From an uncultured Pirellulaceae bacterium (GTDB lineage Bacteria; Planctomycetota; Planctomycetia; Pirellulales; Pirellulaceae): a stretch of 35,616 nt of DNA. The stretch is from NCBI GenBank assembly GCA_937928215.1, contig CALFWL010000053.1, forward strand, positions 1 to 35,616, in the 5' to 3' direction. The notes below the pieces were generated by a model. That model had not been told where the DNA came from and did no database searches. It saw nothing but the letters and a program-made list of their open reading frames with translations. Each line of letters begins with the position of its first letter. The stretch's first letter is position 1. Positions 29,282 through 34,774 of the stretch are shown here, in pieces. The translations under genes and the position numbers were made by a program.

Positions 29282-30184
29282 ATGCGATACAGAAAACAGT
29301 TCGTTGTCGGCTTATGTGCTGCTGTGATTGGAACAGTCGCGAGTTACGCGTTCATGCCTGATGCGGCACTCGTTGCCCAACAGCCAGCAACGAATGACGA
29401 CCCATTTGGCGGTGGAAGCCAACCGACAGAAAAACGAGTCGCGTCGATAGCGAACACTGACAACGCGACAGTTTTGCGTCGCCAAGACCCGGACGAAAGA
29501 ATTCGTCAGGCGCTGAACAAACCATGCACACTCGACTTCGATGAAGCGCCGTGGTCGGATGTCAAGCAGGAGCTTGAATCTCTCTACCGTTTCAACATCT
29601 TGCTAACTCCATCTGCCCGGGATGATTCACTCGATGTAGATGAACCCATTACGGTCAGCCTCAAAGGAATAAGCCTTGGGAATGCTTTGCGACTGATGTT
29701 GAGCGAAAAGAATGCGACGTTCGTCGTGCAGGATGAAGTTCTAAAAATTATCTCGCTTGACGACGTTAAAAATCCCGACTACTTCACTCGTCGAATGATT
29801 GACATCAGCGGAATCGTGAACTCGGCGAACCTTTGGCACCACAAGCAAAGGGCAACCAACCACACGCGACACGATAGCGGGCCAGTGGATGGTGGTATGG
29901 ACATGGGAATGGACATGGGAATGGGGAAACGTTCGGGCGGCAGGAGCTTTCAGCCGCAGGTCGACGAGAACACGTTGACGGACTTGGTCCTTCACTCTGT
30001 TCAGCCAGATGCATGGAGAGACAATCCATACGGGTTTGGGAACAGTGAGCAGAAACCGACCGCAACTGGCTTGGCTACATGCACGGGGTTCTGCGGCAAT
30101 TTGATCGTCAATGGTCCAGAAGAGTTGCTGGATGAGGTCGAAAGTTTCGTGCGTAAGATCGAAGCGAATTTCGCAGACAGATAG
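29282..30184 (+). CDS. Exported secretin/STN-like protein with Met-Gly repeat
   Basis: Exported 300-residue protein with GGAG 7 bases before the ATG and a signal peptide (VVGLCAAVIGTVASYAF). About residues 75-165 resemble the N0/STN domain of secretins and TonB-dependent receptors: CTLDFDEAPWSDVKQELESL, FNILLTPSA, ITVSLKGISLGNALRLMLSE, FVVQDEVLKIIS. A low-complexity stretch GMDMGMDMGMG, encoded by tandem 12-base repeats near 29895-29925, follows. The C-terminus has LIVNGPEELLDEVESFVRKIE, like the N1-type end of such modules. There is no outer-membrane pore domain. Probably a periplasmic interaction protein. Confidence 0.75.
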   Translation: MRYRKQFVVGLCAAVIGTVASYAFMPDAALVAQQPATNDDPFGGGSQPTEKRVASIANTDNATVLRRQDPDERIRQALNKPCTLDFDEAPWSDVKQELESLYRFNILLTPSARDDSLDVDEPITVSLKGISLGNALRLMLSEKNATFVVQDEVLKIISLDDVKNPDYFTRRMIDISGIVNSANLWHHKQRATNHTRHDSGPVDGGMDMGMDMGMGKRSGGRSFQPQVDENTLTDLVLHSVQPDAWRDNPYGFGNSEQKPTATGLATCTGFCGNLIVNGPEELLDEVESFVRKIEANFADR

Positions 30185-30221
30185 GTGCCAGCCAGTAATA
30201 AAATGAGCCCGGAAAACACCG

Positions 30222-30249
30222 TTGACATCGGCAACGGTTCGCCTATCAT
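30222..30249 (+). promoter_or_regulatory. Promoter of the his operon
   Basis: TTGACA (30222-30227, perfect) and TATCAT (30244-30249) are separated by 16 bases. The expected transcription start is 30256-30257, which is the A of the leader-peptide ATG or one base before it. This is the best promoter match I see in the window. Confidence 0.7.
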
Positions 30250-30256
30250 GCTTCCC

Positions 30257-30307
30257 ATGAGCACGCATCAGCACCACAATCATTTTCATCTGCACCTAAA
30301 CGGGTGA
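30257..30307 (+). CDS. hisL: His operon leader peptide
   Basis: A 16-residue peptide, MSTHQHHNHFHLHLNG, with six His codons within ten residues (positions 4-13), immediately upstream of a terminator and hisG. High His content is the sensor of transcription attenuation: lack of charged His-tRNA stalls the ribosome on these codons and prevents terminator formation. The reading frame contains another ATG at 30248, but that overlaps the -10 box and would not be transcribed. There is no Shine-Dalgarno, consistent with a leaderless transcript. Confidence 0.88.
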   Translation: MSTHQHHNHFHLHLNG

Positions 30308-30350
30308 TGGTTGTGGCTTAGTCTGCGTTTGCAATCCCATTGCAAAAACG
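30274..30350 (+). promoter_or_regulatory. His attenuator: alternative hairpins
   Basis: Segment A, in the His codons (30274-30284), can pair with segment B (30306-30316) over 11 positions including two G-U pairs. A second hairpin follows: CGTTTGCAAT (about 30326-30335) with ATTGCAAAAACG (30339-30350), loop CCC, two bulged bases. Alternatives visible by eye are B (ATGGTTG, 30307-30313) with CAATCCCAT (30332-30340), and GCGTTTG (30326-30332) with CAAAGACGC at the 5' arm of the terminator. These fit the A:B, C:D, E:F versus B:C, D:E logic of enteric his attenuators. Confidence 0.75.
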
Positions 30351-30358
30351 TGAAATTC

Positions 30359-30394
30359 AAAGACGCTGGCCTCGACGGTCAAGCGTCTTTTTTT
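30359..30394 (+). terminator. His operon attenuator terminator
   Basis: AAAGACGCTGGCC (30359-30371) pairs with GGTCAAGCGTCTTT (30377-30390) with one bulged A, one G-U pair and loop TCGAC, followed by a run of seven T (30388-30394). It lies between the leader peptide and hisG, so it must be conditional. Confidence 0.88.
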
Positions 30395-30476
30395 ATTCTG
30401 CACCCCGTTTTTCGTCACTCGTCACGCAGCTGGCGTGCTGACACTTAACTATACCAACGAGTCCTGAATCAATCTC

Positions 30477-31358
30477 ATGTCGCCTCAACGCACCGCCGAA
30501 TCCGTTCGCCTCGCTCTGCCCAAGGGCCGAATGTTTGACGAAATTGTCTCCCTTCTCAAAGACGCCGGCATCACGATCCGCAATTCCGAACGCGGCTATC
30601 GACCGAATATTTCGCTCGAAAACTACAACGCGAAAATCCTCAAGCCGCGCAACGTGATCACGATGCTGCTGGCCAACGCTCGCGATGTTGGGTTCGCCGG
30701 AGCCGATTGGTTGGACGAGATGGGCGTTGAACTGCCCGAACTTTTGGACACCGGGATGAATCCGGTTCGGCTGGTTGTGGCGGCTCCACACGAGTTACTA
30801 AAAGAAGGCGATGGCGATTTGCCCAAGCGACCGTTGGTAATTGCGTCCGAGTACCCGAATATGGCAAAGCGTTGGGTCGAGAAAAAGGGAATCGACGCCA
30901 GCGTCCTTCAGACTCACGGTGCCACCGAAGTCTTTCCGCCTGAAGATGCGGATCTGATCATTGACAATACGTCGACGGGTTCGACGCTGCGAGCCAACGG
31001 TTTGAAAATCATTGACGAGATCATGACTTCATCGACTCGACTGTACGCCTCGGCTGAGGCGATGGCCGACCCATACCGAAAAGAACAGCTTGAACATTTG
31101 ACCTTGCTGCTGGACGCGGTGTTGCGAGCACGCGGTCGAGTGATGATGGATCTGAATGTTGCCCAAGAAAAATTGGACGCCGTGCTGGAATGCCTGCCAT
31201 CGATGCGACAGCCTTCGGTTTCACCGCTCAGTGAAGACGGTTGGTTCTCAGTTCGCAGTGCAGTGCCTCGGAAGGAGTTGGCGTTGATCGTTCCACAGCT
31301 CAAAGCCCGAGGTGCATGTGATATCGTGACGACCTCAGCAGAGCAGTTGATTCCGTAA
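30477..31358 (+). CDS. hisG: ATP phosphoribosyltransferase HisG, long form
   Basis: Catalyses the first committed step of histidine synthesis, ATP plus PRPP to phosphoribosyl-ATP. The 293-residue product is the long form with a C-terminal ACT-like histidine-binding domain, so it does not need HisZ. Motifs: VRLALPKGRMFDEIVSLLKDAGI, DVGFAGADWLDEMG, the PRPP-binding DLIIDNTSTGSTLRANGL (about residues 158-176), and the regulatory domain with RVMMDLNVAQEKLDAVLECLPSM and DGWFSVRSAVPRKE. It should be feedback-inhibited by histidine, in addition to transcription control by the attenuator 80 bases upstream. It is followed after 210 bases by the hisC-hisB fusion. Confidence 0.96.
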   Translation: MSPQRTAESVRLALPKGRMFDEIVSLLKDAGITIRNSERGYRPNISLENYNAKILKPRNVITMLLANARDVGFAGADWLDEMGVELPELLDTGMNPVRLVVAAPHELLKEGDGDLPKRPLVIASEYPNMAKRWVEKKGIDASVLQTHGATEVFPPEDADLIIDNTSTGSTLRANGLKIIDEIMTSSTRLYASAEAMADPYRKEQLEHLTLLLDAVLRARGRVMMDLNVAQEKLDAVLECLPSMRQPSVSPLSEDGWFSVRSAVPRKELALIVPQLKARGACDIVTTSAEQLIP

Positions 31359-31568
31359 GTGGTCTCGTCAACAGTTGTTAGGGTACGGAGCACACAGGGT
31401 GCGGGATGCAAGCCGAAGCCGGCGAGTTTGCCGGGAAGCGATCGATTGAGCATTAGAATGTCCAAACGCGAAACCCATTTCACACTTGAGCCCCGCACCT
31501 GTTTCACACTTGCCCCCGCACTCTCTCTGAACCCCTGAATCGCTCAATCCGACTTCGGTATTGGAATC
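31359..31568 (+). other. hisG to hisCB spacer with short tandem repeat
   Basis: A 24-base unit TTTCACACTTGAGCCCCGCAC... (31478-31501) is repeated imperfectly at 31502-31524. GGTGCGGG (31398-31405) and CCCGCACC (31492-31499) form an inverted repeat. No gene or promoter is supported. Confidence 0.4.
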
Positions 31569-33272
31569 ATGGCTTACGATCCTCCAAAATTCAAAAATAA
31601 AATCACGCTGCAACTTAGCCGCAACGAATCACGGTGCGCGATTGAGTCGTTGAGCGAAACGTTGGGCGGGCTGAACGAGGACTTCGTTGTTCGGTATCCG
31701 TCGCACATGGCGCTGCAAGATGTGATCGGCCACTGGGTGGGCGTTGAAAGCAGTCGCATCGTGGTCTCGGCGGGCGGCGACGATTCCCTCGATCGGATCA
31801 TGCGAACCATGCTGATCGACCGGCGAAAAAAAGTCGTCTCGCACGCTCCCTCGTTCGAGATGATCGACATCTACGCCAGCAATTACGGTGGAGTGATCGA
31901 TGCTGTTGAGTGGCTTGATGGTGCATTCCCAACGGATCAGCTGCTCGCAAAGATCGATGATTCGACCGGCGTTGTGATCGTCGTGTCGCCCAATAATCCC
32001 ACCGGTGGCTTTGTCTCGAAAACGGATGTTCTCAAAATCGCCGATGCTGCACAGCAACACGGCGCAAAAATGTTGTTGGACAACGCGTACATTGAATTCG
32101 CCGATGATGAGACTCGGATCGAACATGACAATCTGATGATCTTGCGAACGCTTTCCAAGGCTTGGGGGTTGGCCGGTTTGCGAGTCGGCTACTTGATCGC
32201 GCCGGATGAAGCGACGGCGACGAAAATCCGCGACGCGGCAGGTCCGTTCCCGGTCAGCGCGGTGTCGCTGGAGACCGCTCGAATTGCGATGACCGATCAC
32301 CAACCGACGATGCGAACGAACATTGAACGTATCAAGGCCTTCCGGTCGCAACTGGCGGCTTTGCTGGAAGAGTGTGGTGGCAAGCCACTACCGTCAGCCG
32401 GCAATTTTCTGCTGTGCGAATTTCCGAACGCCGAAGAAGTTTGGAAACAGTTGGCGACCGACGGGATCGCCGTGCGAAAGTTCGTTGGTTCGCCCTCGCT
32501 GGAAAACAAACTGCGCATCACGGTTCCCGCGACGGCGGCAGAGTATCTGGAATTGACCCAGTCACTCTGTCGAATCGGTGGCTTGAACTTTGATGTTCAG
32601 ATGGCGGCGGTGGCTGAAGTCATGAAGCCCGAGATGGTGGTGACTGCCGCAACGCCCGAATCCTCCACGGCTCTTCCGGCTGCGAAAGCAGGCGATCGAA
32701 CGGCCCAAACGAAACGGAAAACCAAAGAGACTGACATCGAGATCGCGCTGAACTTGGACGGAACCGGGAAGGCCGAGATCAAAACCGGCATCGGTTTTCT
32801 GGATCACATGCTGACTGCCCTAGCGTTTCATAGCCGCATGGATTTGAAATTGATCTGTGACGGCGACTTGCATATCGACGATCACCACACCGCCGAAGAC
32901 TGCGCGTTGGCTCTTGGAACAGCCATCGACGAAGCCCTCGGGCCTCGGACGGGCATCAAGCGTTTTGGATACGCTTACGCGCCGCTGGATGAATCGCTGG
33001 CTCGATCGGTGGTCGACTTGAGCGGCCGACCGTGGCCTGAAATTCACCTGAATCTGCAACGCGAGATGGTCGGAACGTGGGCGTGCGAAAATATTACTCA
33101 CTTTTTTCAGTCGCTCGCGATGACGCTGCGGTGTTCGCTGCACGTTGATGTGATTCGTGGAGACAATGATCACCACAAAGCCGAAGCGGCTTTCAAGTCG
33201 CTCGCCAAGGCGTTGGGAGAGGCGGTAACGAAAGCTGAAGGAGCCGTGCCTAGCACCAAGGGTGTGCTGTAA
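31569..33272 (+). CDS. hisCB: Fused histidinol-phosphate aminotransferase and IGP dehydratase (HisC-HisB)
   Basis: Bifunctional protein of 567 residues. Residues 1-340 are a PLP fold-type I aminotransferase of the HisC type: SAGGDDSLDRIMR, SPNNPTGG (N143), DNAY (D171, Y174), SKAWGLAGLRVGY with the PLP lysine K197 and R205, and a closing LRITV. A linker rich in A, T and P (about 341-382) leads to a complete imidazoleglycerol-phosphate dehydratase (383-567): KETDIEIALNLDGTG, GIGFLDHMLTALAFHS, DDHHTAEDCALALG (H439, H440), DLSGRPW, and DNDHHKAEAAFKSLAKAL (H535, H536). The halves catalyse consecutive steps (IGP to imidazole-acetol phosphate, then to histidinol phosphate), joined in reverse order. 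No stop or frameshift is seen between them. E. coli HisB is instead fused to the phosphatase. Confidence 0.93.
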   Translation: MAYDPPKFKNKITLQLSRNESRCAIESLSETLGGLNEDFVVRYPSHMALQDVIGHWVGVESSRIVVSAGGDDSLDRIMRTMLIDRRKKVVSHAPSFEMIDIYASNYGGVIDAVEWLDGAFPTDQLLAKIDDSTGVVIVVSPNNPTGGFVSKTDVLKIADAAQQHGAKMLLDNAYIEFADDETRIEHDNLMILRTLSKAWGLAGLRVGYLIAPDEATATKIRDAAGPFPVSAVSLETARIAMTDHQPTMRTNIERIKAFRSQLAALLEECGGKPLPSAGNFLLCEFPNAEEVWKQLATDGIAVRKFVGSPSLENKLRITVPATAAEYLELTQSLCRIGGLNFDVQMAAVAEVMKPEMVVTAATPESSTALPAAKAGDRTAQTKRKTKETDIEIALNLDGTGKAEIKTGIGFLDHMLTALAFHSRMDLKLICDGDLHIDDHHTAEDCALALGTAIDEALGPRTGIKRFGYAYAPLDESLARSVVDLSGRPWPEIHLNLQREMVGTWACENITHFFQSLAMTLRCSLHVDVIRGDNDHHKAEAAFKSLAKALGEAVTKAEGAVPSTKGVL

Positions 33273-33399: not shown

Positions 33400-34011
33400 A
33401 TGATTCAGATTATTAACACGGGTGTTGCCAATATTCGATCGCTGCAAGCAGCTTTCGATCGACTGGAGGCCGAATGGAACCTGACAGACGATGCCAGCCT
33501 AATCGAATCTTCCAGTCACGTCGTGCTGCCGGGCGTGGGCGCCTATAGCGCGGCGGTCGAACAAGTGGACGCGTTGGGTGTTCGCGAAGTGATCGTGGAG
33601 CGTATCCGTTCGGGCCGCCCTACCCTTTGCATCTGTTTGGGGATGCAAATGTTGGGACAATCCAGCGGGGAAAGCCCCGGCGTGCAAGGGTTGGGCATTC
33701 TCCCATGTGAAATCAAAAGGTTCAGCAACGATGTCAAGGTTCCGCAGCTTGGCTGGAACACCGTCACGCCCGATCCCAATGCGACGCACAAATTTTACGA
33801 GGCTGGCGAAGCCTATTTCGCCAACTCGTTCCGCCTTGTTGAGCCGCCCGACGCATCGACTGGTTGGAACTTTGCGGCAACCGATTACGGCGGGTCATTT
33901 GTCAGCAGCGTATGGAAGGACCAAGTCCTCGCCTGTCAGTTTCACCCGGAGCTCTCCGGGCCATGGGGGCAGCAGTTATTAAAAAACTGGATCGCCGGAG
34001 GGCCGTCGTAA
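33400..34011 (+). CDS. hisH: Imidazole glycerol phosphate synthase glutaminase subunit HisH
   Basis: Class I glutamine amidotransferase that feeds ammonia to HisF. The catalytic triad is visible: C79 in CICLGMQML, and H182 and E184 in CQFHPELSG. LPGVGAYSAA and VPQLGWNTV are typical. The usual HSY-type motif reads YFANSF here (His to Asn), away from the triad. Length of 203 residues is normal. It starts after the inverted repeat and ends one base before hisF, so the two subunits are co-translated. Confidence 0.95.
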   Translation: MIQIINTGVANIRSLQAAFDRLEAEWNLTDDASLIESSSHVVLPGVGAYSAAVEQVDALGVREVIVERIRSGRPTLCICLGMQMLGQSSGESPGVQGLGILPCEIKRFSNDVKVPQLGWNTVTPDPNATHKFYEAGEAYFANSFRLVEPPDASTGWNFAATDYGGSFVSSVWKDQVLACQFHPELSGPWGQQLLKNWIAGGPS

Positions 34012-34012
34012 C

Positions 34013-34774
34013 ATGTTAAAAGCTCGAATCATTCCCTGCCTAGATGTTAACGACGGTCGGGTCGTCAAAGGGGTCAAGTTTCAAAACCTGCGTGACGCCG
34101 GCAGCCCTGAGGAGCTGGCGGCTCACTACGAAGAACAGGGCGCCGACGAACTGGTCGTGCTGGACGTTTCTGCGACTCGTCAGGCAAGACTGGCCATGTT
34201 GGAAACGGTCGAAATCGTGCGGAAGCAACTGTCAATTCCATTGACGGTCGGAGGCGGCGTTGGCTCTGTCGAAGATGCGGGCCGATTGCTGAACGCCGGA
34301 GCGGACAAGGTCAGCATCAATTCAGCTGCTGTTCGCAATCCGGATCTGGTCAACGAAATGGCTCAGCGATTTGGAGCTCAATGCACTGTCGTGGCCATCG
34401 ATGCCAAAATGACTGACGGTCAATTTCAGGTACTCACTCGTAGCGGTACCGAAGCAGAAACGCTGGACGCCGTCGCATGGGCCGGGGAAGCTCAGCAACG
34501 CGGTGCCGGTGAGATTCTGCTGACCAGCTTTGATCGCGATGGGACTCGCAGTGGATACGATTTGCCGATGCTGACCGCCGTGACGAATGCTTGCAGTCTG
34601 CCGGTCATCGCATCGGGTGGAGCCAACAATGTGGCTCACATGGTCGAAGCCTTCGAGCACGGGGCTCACGCAGTGTTAGCGGCATCAATTTTTCACGACG
34701 GAAACATGACCGTTAACGATGTCAAACGCGAGCTTGCGCATCAGGGAATCAGCACTCGCACACTTGTTTCCTGA
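34013..34774 (+). CDS. hisF: Imidazole glycerol phosphate synthase cyclase subunit HisF
   Basis: (Beta-alpha)8-barrel cyclase that converts PRFAR plus ammonia to IGP and AICAR. The catalytic aspartates D11 (IIPCLDVNDGRVVKG) and D130 (VVAIDAKM) are in place. Phosphate-binding motifs are LTVGGGVGSVEDA with DKVSINSAAV, and LPVIASGGANNVAHM with AVLAASIFH. TSFDRDGTRSGYD is characteristic of HisF rather than HisA. The 253-residue length is standard. It begins one base after the hisH stop. Confidence 0.96.
   Translation: MLKARIIPCLDVNDGRVVKGVKFQNLRDAGSPEELAAHYEEQGADELVVLDVSATRQARLAMLETVEIVRKQLSIPLTVGGGVGSVEDAGRLLNAGADKVSINSAAVRNPDLVNEMAQRFGAQCTVVAIDAKMTDGQFQVLTRSGTEAETLDAVAWAGEAQQRGAGEILLTSFDRDGTRSGYDLPMLTAVTNACSLPVIASGGANNVAHMVEAFEHGAHAVLAASIFHDGNMTVNDVKRELAHQGISTRTLVS

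Follow-up and report, generated by a model that had tools for sequence, protein, structure and literature searches.

A predicted ribosome-mediated attenuator of the his operon on a probably leaderless transcript in a planctomycete

The his leader region and its promoter

The window, which is the whole 35,616-nucleotide stretch of DNA analyzed (contig CALFWL010000053.1 of an uncultured Pirellulaceae bacterium), carries his genes in the order hisG-hisCB-hisH-hisF 3' of a short attenuator-like region at 30257-30394. All the features described lie on the forward (+) strand. The hisG gene (30477-31358) encodes an ATP phosphoribosyltransferase with the HisG C-terminal domain (TIGR00070, E 2.9e-43), and hisH (33400-34011) and hisF (34013-34774) match TIGR01855 (E 6.9e-50) and TIGR00735 (E 1.9e-97), respectively. 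The hisC and hisB genes are seemingly joined in one 567-aa frame (31569-33272); residues 9-319 match the hisC model TIGR01141 (204.5 bits, short of the 276.55 set as its cut-off), and residues 376-567 match the hisB model NF002111 above its cut-off.

Upstream of hisG, a 16-codon frame (30257-30304, followed by TGA at 30305-30307) encodes the leader peptide MSTHQHHNHFHLHLNG, in which six of the 16 codons, i.e., 4, 6, 7, 9, 11, and 13, specify His. No other ATG frame of 8-30 codons on either strand of the window reaches both five His codons and a His content of 33%. Region 2, UGGUUGUGG (30308-30316), lies immediately 3' of the leader stop and pairs with region 1 (30274-30282), which runs from the third position of His codon 6 to the second of His codon 9. 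In the first-pass annotation this pairing was given as 11 bp; it exists in the minimum-energy fold as 9 bp, and the two extra pairs compete with an inner 7-bp helix. A predicted 7-bp spacer hairpin, TTGCAAT/ATTGCAA (arms 30329-30335 and 30339-30345), comes next, and then the intrinsic terminator (30359-30394), recognized from sequence and fold, with arms at 30359-30371 and 30377-30390, 13 pairs, one bulge, and seven T at 30388-30394. The T run ends 82 nt upstream of the hisG start at 30477. Thus the six-His leader, the second hairpin, the 13-bp terminator with seven T and the placement before hisG, all proposed from a first look at the sequence, are indeed present.

The fold of 30240-30410 has an energy of -52.2 kcal/mol vs -38.3 kcal/mol for shuffled sequences (z -3.6; none of 200 shuffles as low). 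A promoter with 11 of 12 consensus matches precedes the leader: a -35 box TTGACA (30222-30227), a 16-nt spacer, and a -10 box TATCAT (30244-30249). It is the only promoter-like site in 29700-31600, where shuffles give 0.8, and the same consensus scan finds none downstream of 30394. This promoter, like the antiterminator described below, adds to the first-pass annotation, which mentions neither. A simple scan for terminator-like sites finds one vs 2.2 in shuffles. Since neither promoter nor terminator rises above chance by consensus scanning alone, the case for an attenuator rests on conservation.

Between the end of the -10 box and the leader ATG lie 7 nt. This spacing predicts a transcription start at 30256-30257, on the first base of the ATG or the base preceding it, and translation of the leader peptide is thus probably from a leaderless mRNA. 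All 18 loci of the genus, the window included, share this arrangement: the spacer between the boxes measures 16-17 nt, and 6-7 nt lie between the -10 box and the ATG. When the survey was extended to 45 leaders (18 from the genus and 27 from elsewhere in the phylum), TTGAC occurs at 35 places with its first base 34-39 nt 5' of the start codon. Of the 45 leaders, 40 have a called -10 box, and in 35 (18/18 in the genus, 17/27 elsewhere) the end of this box is 6-10 nt from the start codon. A strict promoter, scoring 8.5 or higher and lying 5-8 nt from the start codon, occurs in 29 of the 45 leaders (the 18 of the genus and 11 of the 27) vs 0.42 expected from mononucleotide shuffles.

The Shine-Dalgarno motifs AGGAG, GGAG, GAGG, AGGA, and AAGG are absent at -20 to -4 from all 18 genus loci, one of which (L008) has GGTG in that interval. 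AGGAG or GGAG precedes the leader in just two of the 45, L213 and L231, and the remaining matches to the motif list are GGTG in L008 and L206 and AAGG in L190. Genes with a Shine-Dalgarno sequence are a small fraction of those in one planctomycete species examined, according to passages of PMC5397173. On these sequence features, the predicted translation of the leader from a leaderless mRNA is well supported in the window's genus; for the leaders elsewhere in the phylum the support is weaker.

This spacing as a genome-wide feature was considered and rejected. The pattern TTGAC-TANNNT-ATG occurs four times in the window's own genome vs seven in the reversed control, and 232 vs 226 times in 17 relatives (summed counts); being not enriched, leaderless-type spacing is not general in these genomes. 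The remaining three matches in that genome (L074, L075, L077) have no amino-acid-rich frame. Promoter-ATG spacing that would fit a leaderless mRNA is also seen at L141 and L142, before a LysR-type regulator gene with the same protein start, and at L145, before a Fur-like gene; both genes are named from their translations.

Conservation and spread of the leader

Sixty near genomes, including the window's own, contain 19 with a HisG of the window type (at least 68% identity). One of these (L019) was left out because its contig begins at hisG and has no upstream sequence, and 12 contigs (L031-L042) that by their length are already represented among L002-L018 were counted once. In each of the 18 resulting loci, the window among them, a His-rich frame (15-19 codons, 3-7 of them His) stands ahead of a terminator hairpin, and the other genus loci, like the window, have T runs after it. 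The peptides themselves vary, from MIRKPKYASHHHNLW to MQSNVHTHHHHAHHLFG, so it is the His-rich character of the frame and not its sequence that is conserved. The core of region 2, GUGG, starts 5-6 nt 3' of the leader stop in 18/18 loci. Absence of the His frame or the terminator from relatives, which the first-pass annotation had named as the result that would speak against it, was thus looked for and not encountered. In four genomes of the same genus (G005, G010, G026, G027) the only HisG match is distant, 28-30% identical, and has no His-run frame upstream; the HisG type therefore varies inside the genus.

Beyond the genus, a Planctomycetaceae MAG (L043) with a HisG 62% identical has the leader MKFKIHHHHVHHHHLVFPK, and L044 (53% identical) has no convincing His leader. 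A long inverted repeat lies upstream of hisG in L044, at ~1840-1900, and folds into a 28-bp stem. A search of 392 genomes was taken to its best 29 further loci (L186-L214; HisG 42-59% identical), which are listed under the window's phylum but outside its class, and 24 of these have a His-rich leader. L195, L198, and L203 lack a leader, L214 has none within its 214 nt of upstream sequence, and L213 has merely a two-His frame, with a Shine-Dalgarno sequence. In L231 (HisG 40% identical) the leader MISNRTAHHHHAHRHEVA, whose frame includes HHHHAHRH, follows a Shine-Dalgarno-like sequence, and L232 (39% identical) has no leader. L213 and L231, both with diverged HisG, are possible leadered forms of the attenuator.

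For a uniform count, a leader was defined as an ATG or GTG frame of 6-30 codons with at least three His, at least 14% His and three of them clustered, no more than 600 nt upstream of hisG. By this definition leaders precede 41 of the 48 hisG genes of this type and none of the 97 planctomycete hisG loci whose product is of another type. The seven loci without one are L195, L198, L203, L213, and L214, together with L211 and L212, whose frames have 33 and 41 codons. The 97 loci, which include L232 and the four genomes of the window's genus named above, represent 96 distinct genes (L136 and L030 are identical) with ~450-600 nt of upstream sequence each (282 nt for L169); L111, L117, and L131 were left out as truncated, and L231 was set apart as it bears a leader. 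The attenuator is therefore widespread in the phylum yet not general, since it follows one HisG lineage. The earlier proposal that planctomycetes regulate his genes by attenuation is supported by the conservation of the element in relatives; it was too broad, and a general planctomycete trait is ruled out by the 0/97 count.

A tree of 78 HisG sequences has a clade of 47 rows (support 100/100) that includes all 43 bearing a leader, though long branches in the tree and a bootstrap that had not settled qualify the support value. The other four rows of the clade (L044, L195, L198, L203) have no recognizable leader. The window's genus falls inside this clade, and the seven HisG that represent the rest of its family fall outside it. 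Transfer of hisG into the genus together with the attenuator could explain this tree, and so could differential loss.

Similar leaders were sought before two other biosynthetic genes. The trpE scan covered 30 loci from 24 genomes, 23 of which have a match. Frames with a run of Trp codons (e.g., GWWWRW, GWCWW) precede trpE in five of the 30 loci (L267-L270 and L274), all from other classes, and have a TTGA-type -35 and a -10-like box that ends 6-7 nt before the ATG. An obvious terminator is seen in L274 only; L267-L270 may therefore act on translation. A WWW frame in L275 and a three-Trp frame starting with TTG in L263, from the window's genus, lack a leaderless-type promoter, and the other two-Trp frames before trpE look like chance. 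No Leu-rich leader was found before leuA in the nine loci above the family cut-off (13 weaker loci were left out). These sequences offer hints that the leaderless leader-peptide design extends beyond his.

Predicted switching between exclusive structures

The segment GUUGUGG that follows the leader stop has two predicted alternative partners, the His codons or the apical half of the terminator. The second pairing produces the predicted antiterminator (30310-30376), made up of the helices 30310-30313/30373-30376, 30315-30318/30368-30371, and 30321-30324/30361-30364. It was obtained by folding the transcript without the leader and without the 3' arm of the terminator, and encloses further pairs and the hairpin 30329-30345. 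In the transcript from stop codon to terminator loop, at least three of the four GUGG bases find partners in the upper 5' arm and loop of the terminator in all 18 genus loci. When the leader is free the core is predicted to pair with the peptide codons, by 4/4 bases in 17 loci and by two in L004.

A stalled ribosome was modeled as covering 13 nt, an assumed footprint counted from the start of the A-site codon, and the modeled transcripts stop at the terminator loop. In this state, before the terminator 3' arm is made, the core is paired with the terminator top for 88 of the 89 stalls at His codons. With the ribosome at the stop codon the core is covered in 18/18 loci, and the terminator would thus be left free of it, a consequence of the assumed footprint. 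With no ribosome, the core in the partial transcript is bound by peptide codons in 12/18 loci and by the terminator top, as antiterminator, in 6/18. In the equilibrium fold of the full leader of the window the terminator is kept for stalls at codons 1-8, which include His 4, 6, and 7, lost for stalls at codons 9-13 (His 9, 11, and 13), and regained from codon 14 to the stop. By this full-length fold the later His stalls switch most clearly; the earlier ones would need folding to occur before the terminator is complete.

In 14 of the 18 genus loci the antiterminator has a lower energy than shuffled spacers give (p up to 0.05; mean z -2.8), and the His-codon pairing beats codon-order shuffles in seven at the 0.05 level (mean z -1.85); in the window itself the latter pairing is no stronger than in codon-order shuffles (p 0.30). 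Outside the genus, a hairpin with a T-rich tail is found in 26 of 26 further leaders; in one of them (L194), left out of the control below, the hairpin finder picked a wrong hairpin. In these 26 leaders the terminator 5' arm is held upstream with a probability of 0.75 at His stalls vs 0.31 at the stop, and in 25 the difference exceeds 0.1, which partly reflects geometry. For this reason the upstream part was shuffled as a control. Across 43 leaders the observed mean is 0.75 vs 0.58 in the control (Wilcoxon 1.6e-12, the rows not being independent); taken singly, 10 of the 43 pass 0.05, and the window does not (0.47).

Covariation was scored from 13 of the 18 sequences, 11 of them distinct (L003, L004, L005, L007, and L008 were left out). 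The L009 terminator has 12 pairs, and none of them is broken in the 11 distinct aligned sequences. Compensatory change in the genus is weak: the terminator has two covarying cells (7/500 shuffles as high), and the antiterminator a double change at one pair, with 115/500 shuffles as high. RNAalifold on whole alignments recovers the terminator alone, a result attributable to the competing states and to the misalignment of L004, L005, L007, and L008 by MAFFT. The support for the predicted antiterminator thus rests on conservation and consistency, not on covariation.

Proposed mechanism and relation to known systems

The reading favored here, with a probability of about 0.86, is a ribosome-mediated transcription attenuator of the his operon that acts on a leaderless transcript. 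RNA polymerase would start at the leader AUG or within one base of it, and a ribosome would load on the 5'-terminal AUG. When charged tRNA-His is present, the ribosome would reach the stop codon and cover region 2 (GUUGUGG), the terminator at 30359-30394 would form, and transcription would end before hisG. When charged tRNA-His is scarce, the ribosome would stall on a His codon and keep the His codons off region 2; the freed region 2 would then pair with the apical half of the terminator, forming the antiterminator, and polymerase would continue into hisG-hisCB-hisH-hisF. Without translation, region 2 would tend to be bound by the His codons, and the terminator would form.

The same attenuator may instead have a conventional 5' untranslated region, with transcription starting further upstream and the leader AUG reached by internal initiation. 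The promoter scan that is not above chance, the Shine-Dalgarno-like sequences before the leaders of the diverged L213 and L231, and the ten of 27 leaders outside the genus with no -10 box called 6-10 nt from the start codon are all compatible with it. This arrangement is nevertheless unlikely, given how regularly TTGAC is positioned across the 45 leaders and that none of the 18 genus loci has a listed Shine-Dalgarno motif (the one GGTG of L008 apart). The hairpin might also control ribosome access to hisG, i.e., act at translation, as some known attenuators are described in passages of PMC9413887 to sequester the ribosome site; a hairpin that ends in seven T, as far as 82 nt 5' of the hisG ATG, and T runs at the other genus loci make this quite improbable.

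Slightly less probable still is a T-box, riboswitch or protein-binding leader in which the His-rich frame is incidental. The his genes of other phyla are under T-box control, as stated in parts of PMC9413887 and PMC3896937. Against this, the His content persists as the peptide sequence changes, with no such frame at the 97 other loci, and the Rfam covariance models, that of the His leader included, give no match at the gathering score in the window and 20 related loci. A T-box or known Rfam element was accordingly rejected, and the element does not belong to the enteric sequence family. Relaxing the limit to E 5 in 30000-30600 brings up no T-box either, and the only sub-threshold matches there are Atu_C9 (14.9 bits) and mir-1306 (14.5). 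Lastly, a chance frame before an ordinary terminator would fit the unexceptional 1:2 pairing of the window; it is ruled out for practical purposes by conservation at 18/18 genus loci and 24/29 distant ones.

A wider history can be proposed, tentatively and at slightly less than even odds. Leaderless ribosome-mediated attenuation would be old in Planctomycetota, and its his version would have been inherited with one HisG lineage across classes. It would have entered one Pirellulaceae genus with that hisG, the neighbors using an unrelated HisG without attenuator, and the leaderless design would also stand before trpE in some members. The Planctomycetota have an unusual cell organization. If the element is conserved across their classes, translation-coupled transcription control would be extended to that phylum. 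The leaderless form would further let one ask if initiation at a 5' AUG keeps pace with the polymerase on an attenuator of only 138 nt.

Control of his genes by amino-acid supply through RNA is shared with the T-box his leaders, which differ in that no translated peptide is needed. Leaderless Cys-rich short frames of mycobacteria were reportedly described by Canestrari in 2020, a study cited in PMC9031893. As in the present case, these are short frames, rich in the sensed amino acid, that precede linked genes (passages of PMC4633059); they differ in sensing cysteine, in belonging to actinobacteria, and in controlling downstream translation, as stated in part of PMC9031893. In trpL of Sinorhizobium meliloti, the 5' end of the attenuator RNA coincides with the ATG of the leader peptide, which is the arrangement predicted here. 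That system, in the passages of PMC7298713 concerned, responds to tryptophan, belongs to an alphaproteobacterium and has been studied experimentally, whereas the start here is predicted from promoter spacing.

Among his systems, the attenuators of Firmicutes (the Bacillus cereus group, some Eubacteriales, and Erysipelotrichales) have the same His leader with terminator and antiterminator, predicted by comparison (PMC9413887, in part). They are likewise patchy, and transfer of operon and attenuator together is suggested in the same passages. They differ in phylum, and the passages of PMC9413887 that describe them do not mention a leaderless arrangement. Parts of PMC2965389 and PMC9413887 place leader-peptide attenuation in Proteobacteria, Actinobacteria, and some Firmicutes, and leader-gene distance statistics are reported for the planctomycete phylum in part of PMC4833913. 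A search of open-licence papers turned up no description of a planctomycete amino-acid attenuator.

A further likeness is to the his attenuator of E. coli and Salmonella (RF00514 in passages of PMC9413887), with the same His-rich leader, exclusive hairpins and terminator before the his operon. The E. coli leader has seven His in a row, as given in part of PMC3896937, and the planctomycete leader six spaced His codons. The planctomycete element differs further in having no Rfam match, in being predicted leaderless, and in its phylum. The enteric-type stalling design first proposed for this locus thus stands as far as its parts, conserved in relatives, are concerned, and needs amendment in that the transcript is probably leaderless, unlike the enteric one. 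Ribosome-mediated attenuation of his is itself known, as a textbook case in enterics and as a proposal for some Firmicutes; for planctomycetes the open-licence papers searched gave no report of it, and its form there is predicted to be leaderless. Judged from its sequence, the planctomycete element appears suited to operate as the enteric his attenuator does while standing outside its sequence family.
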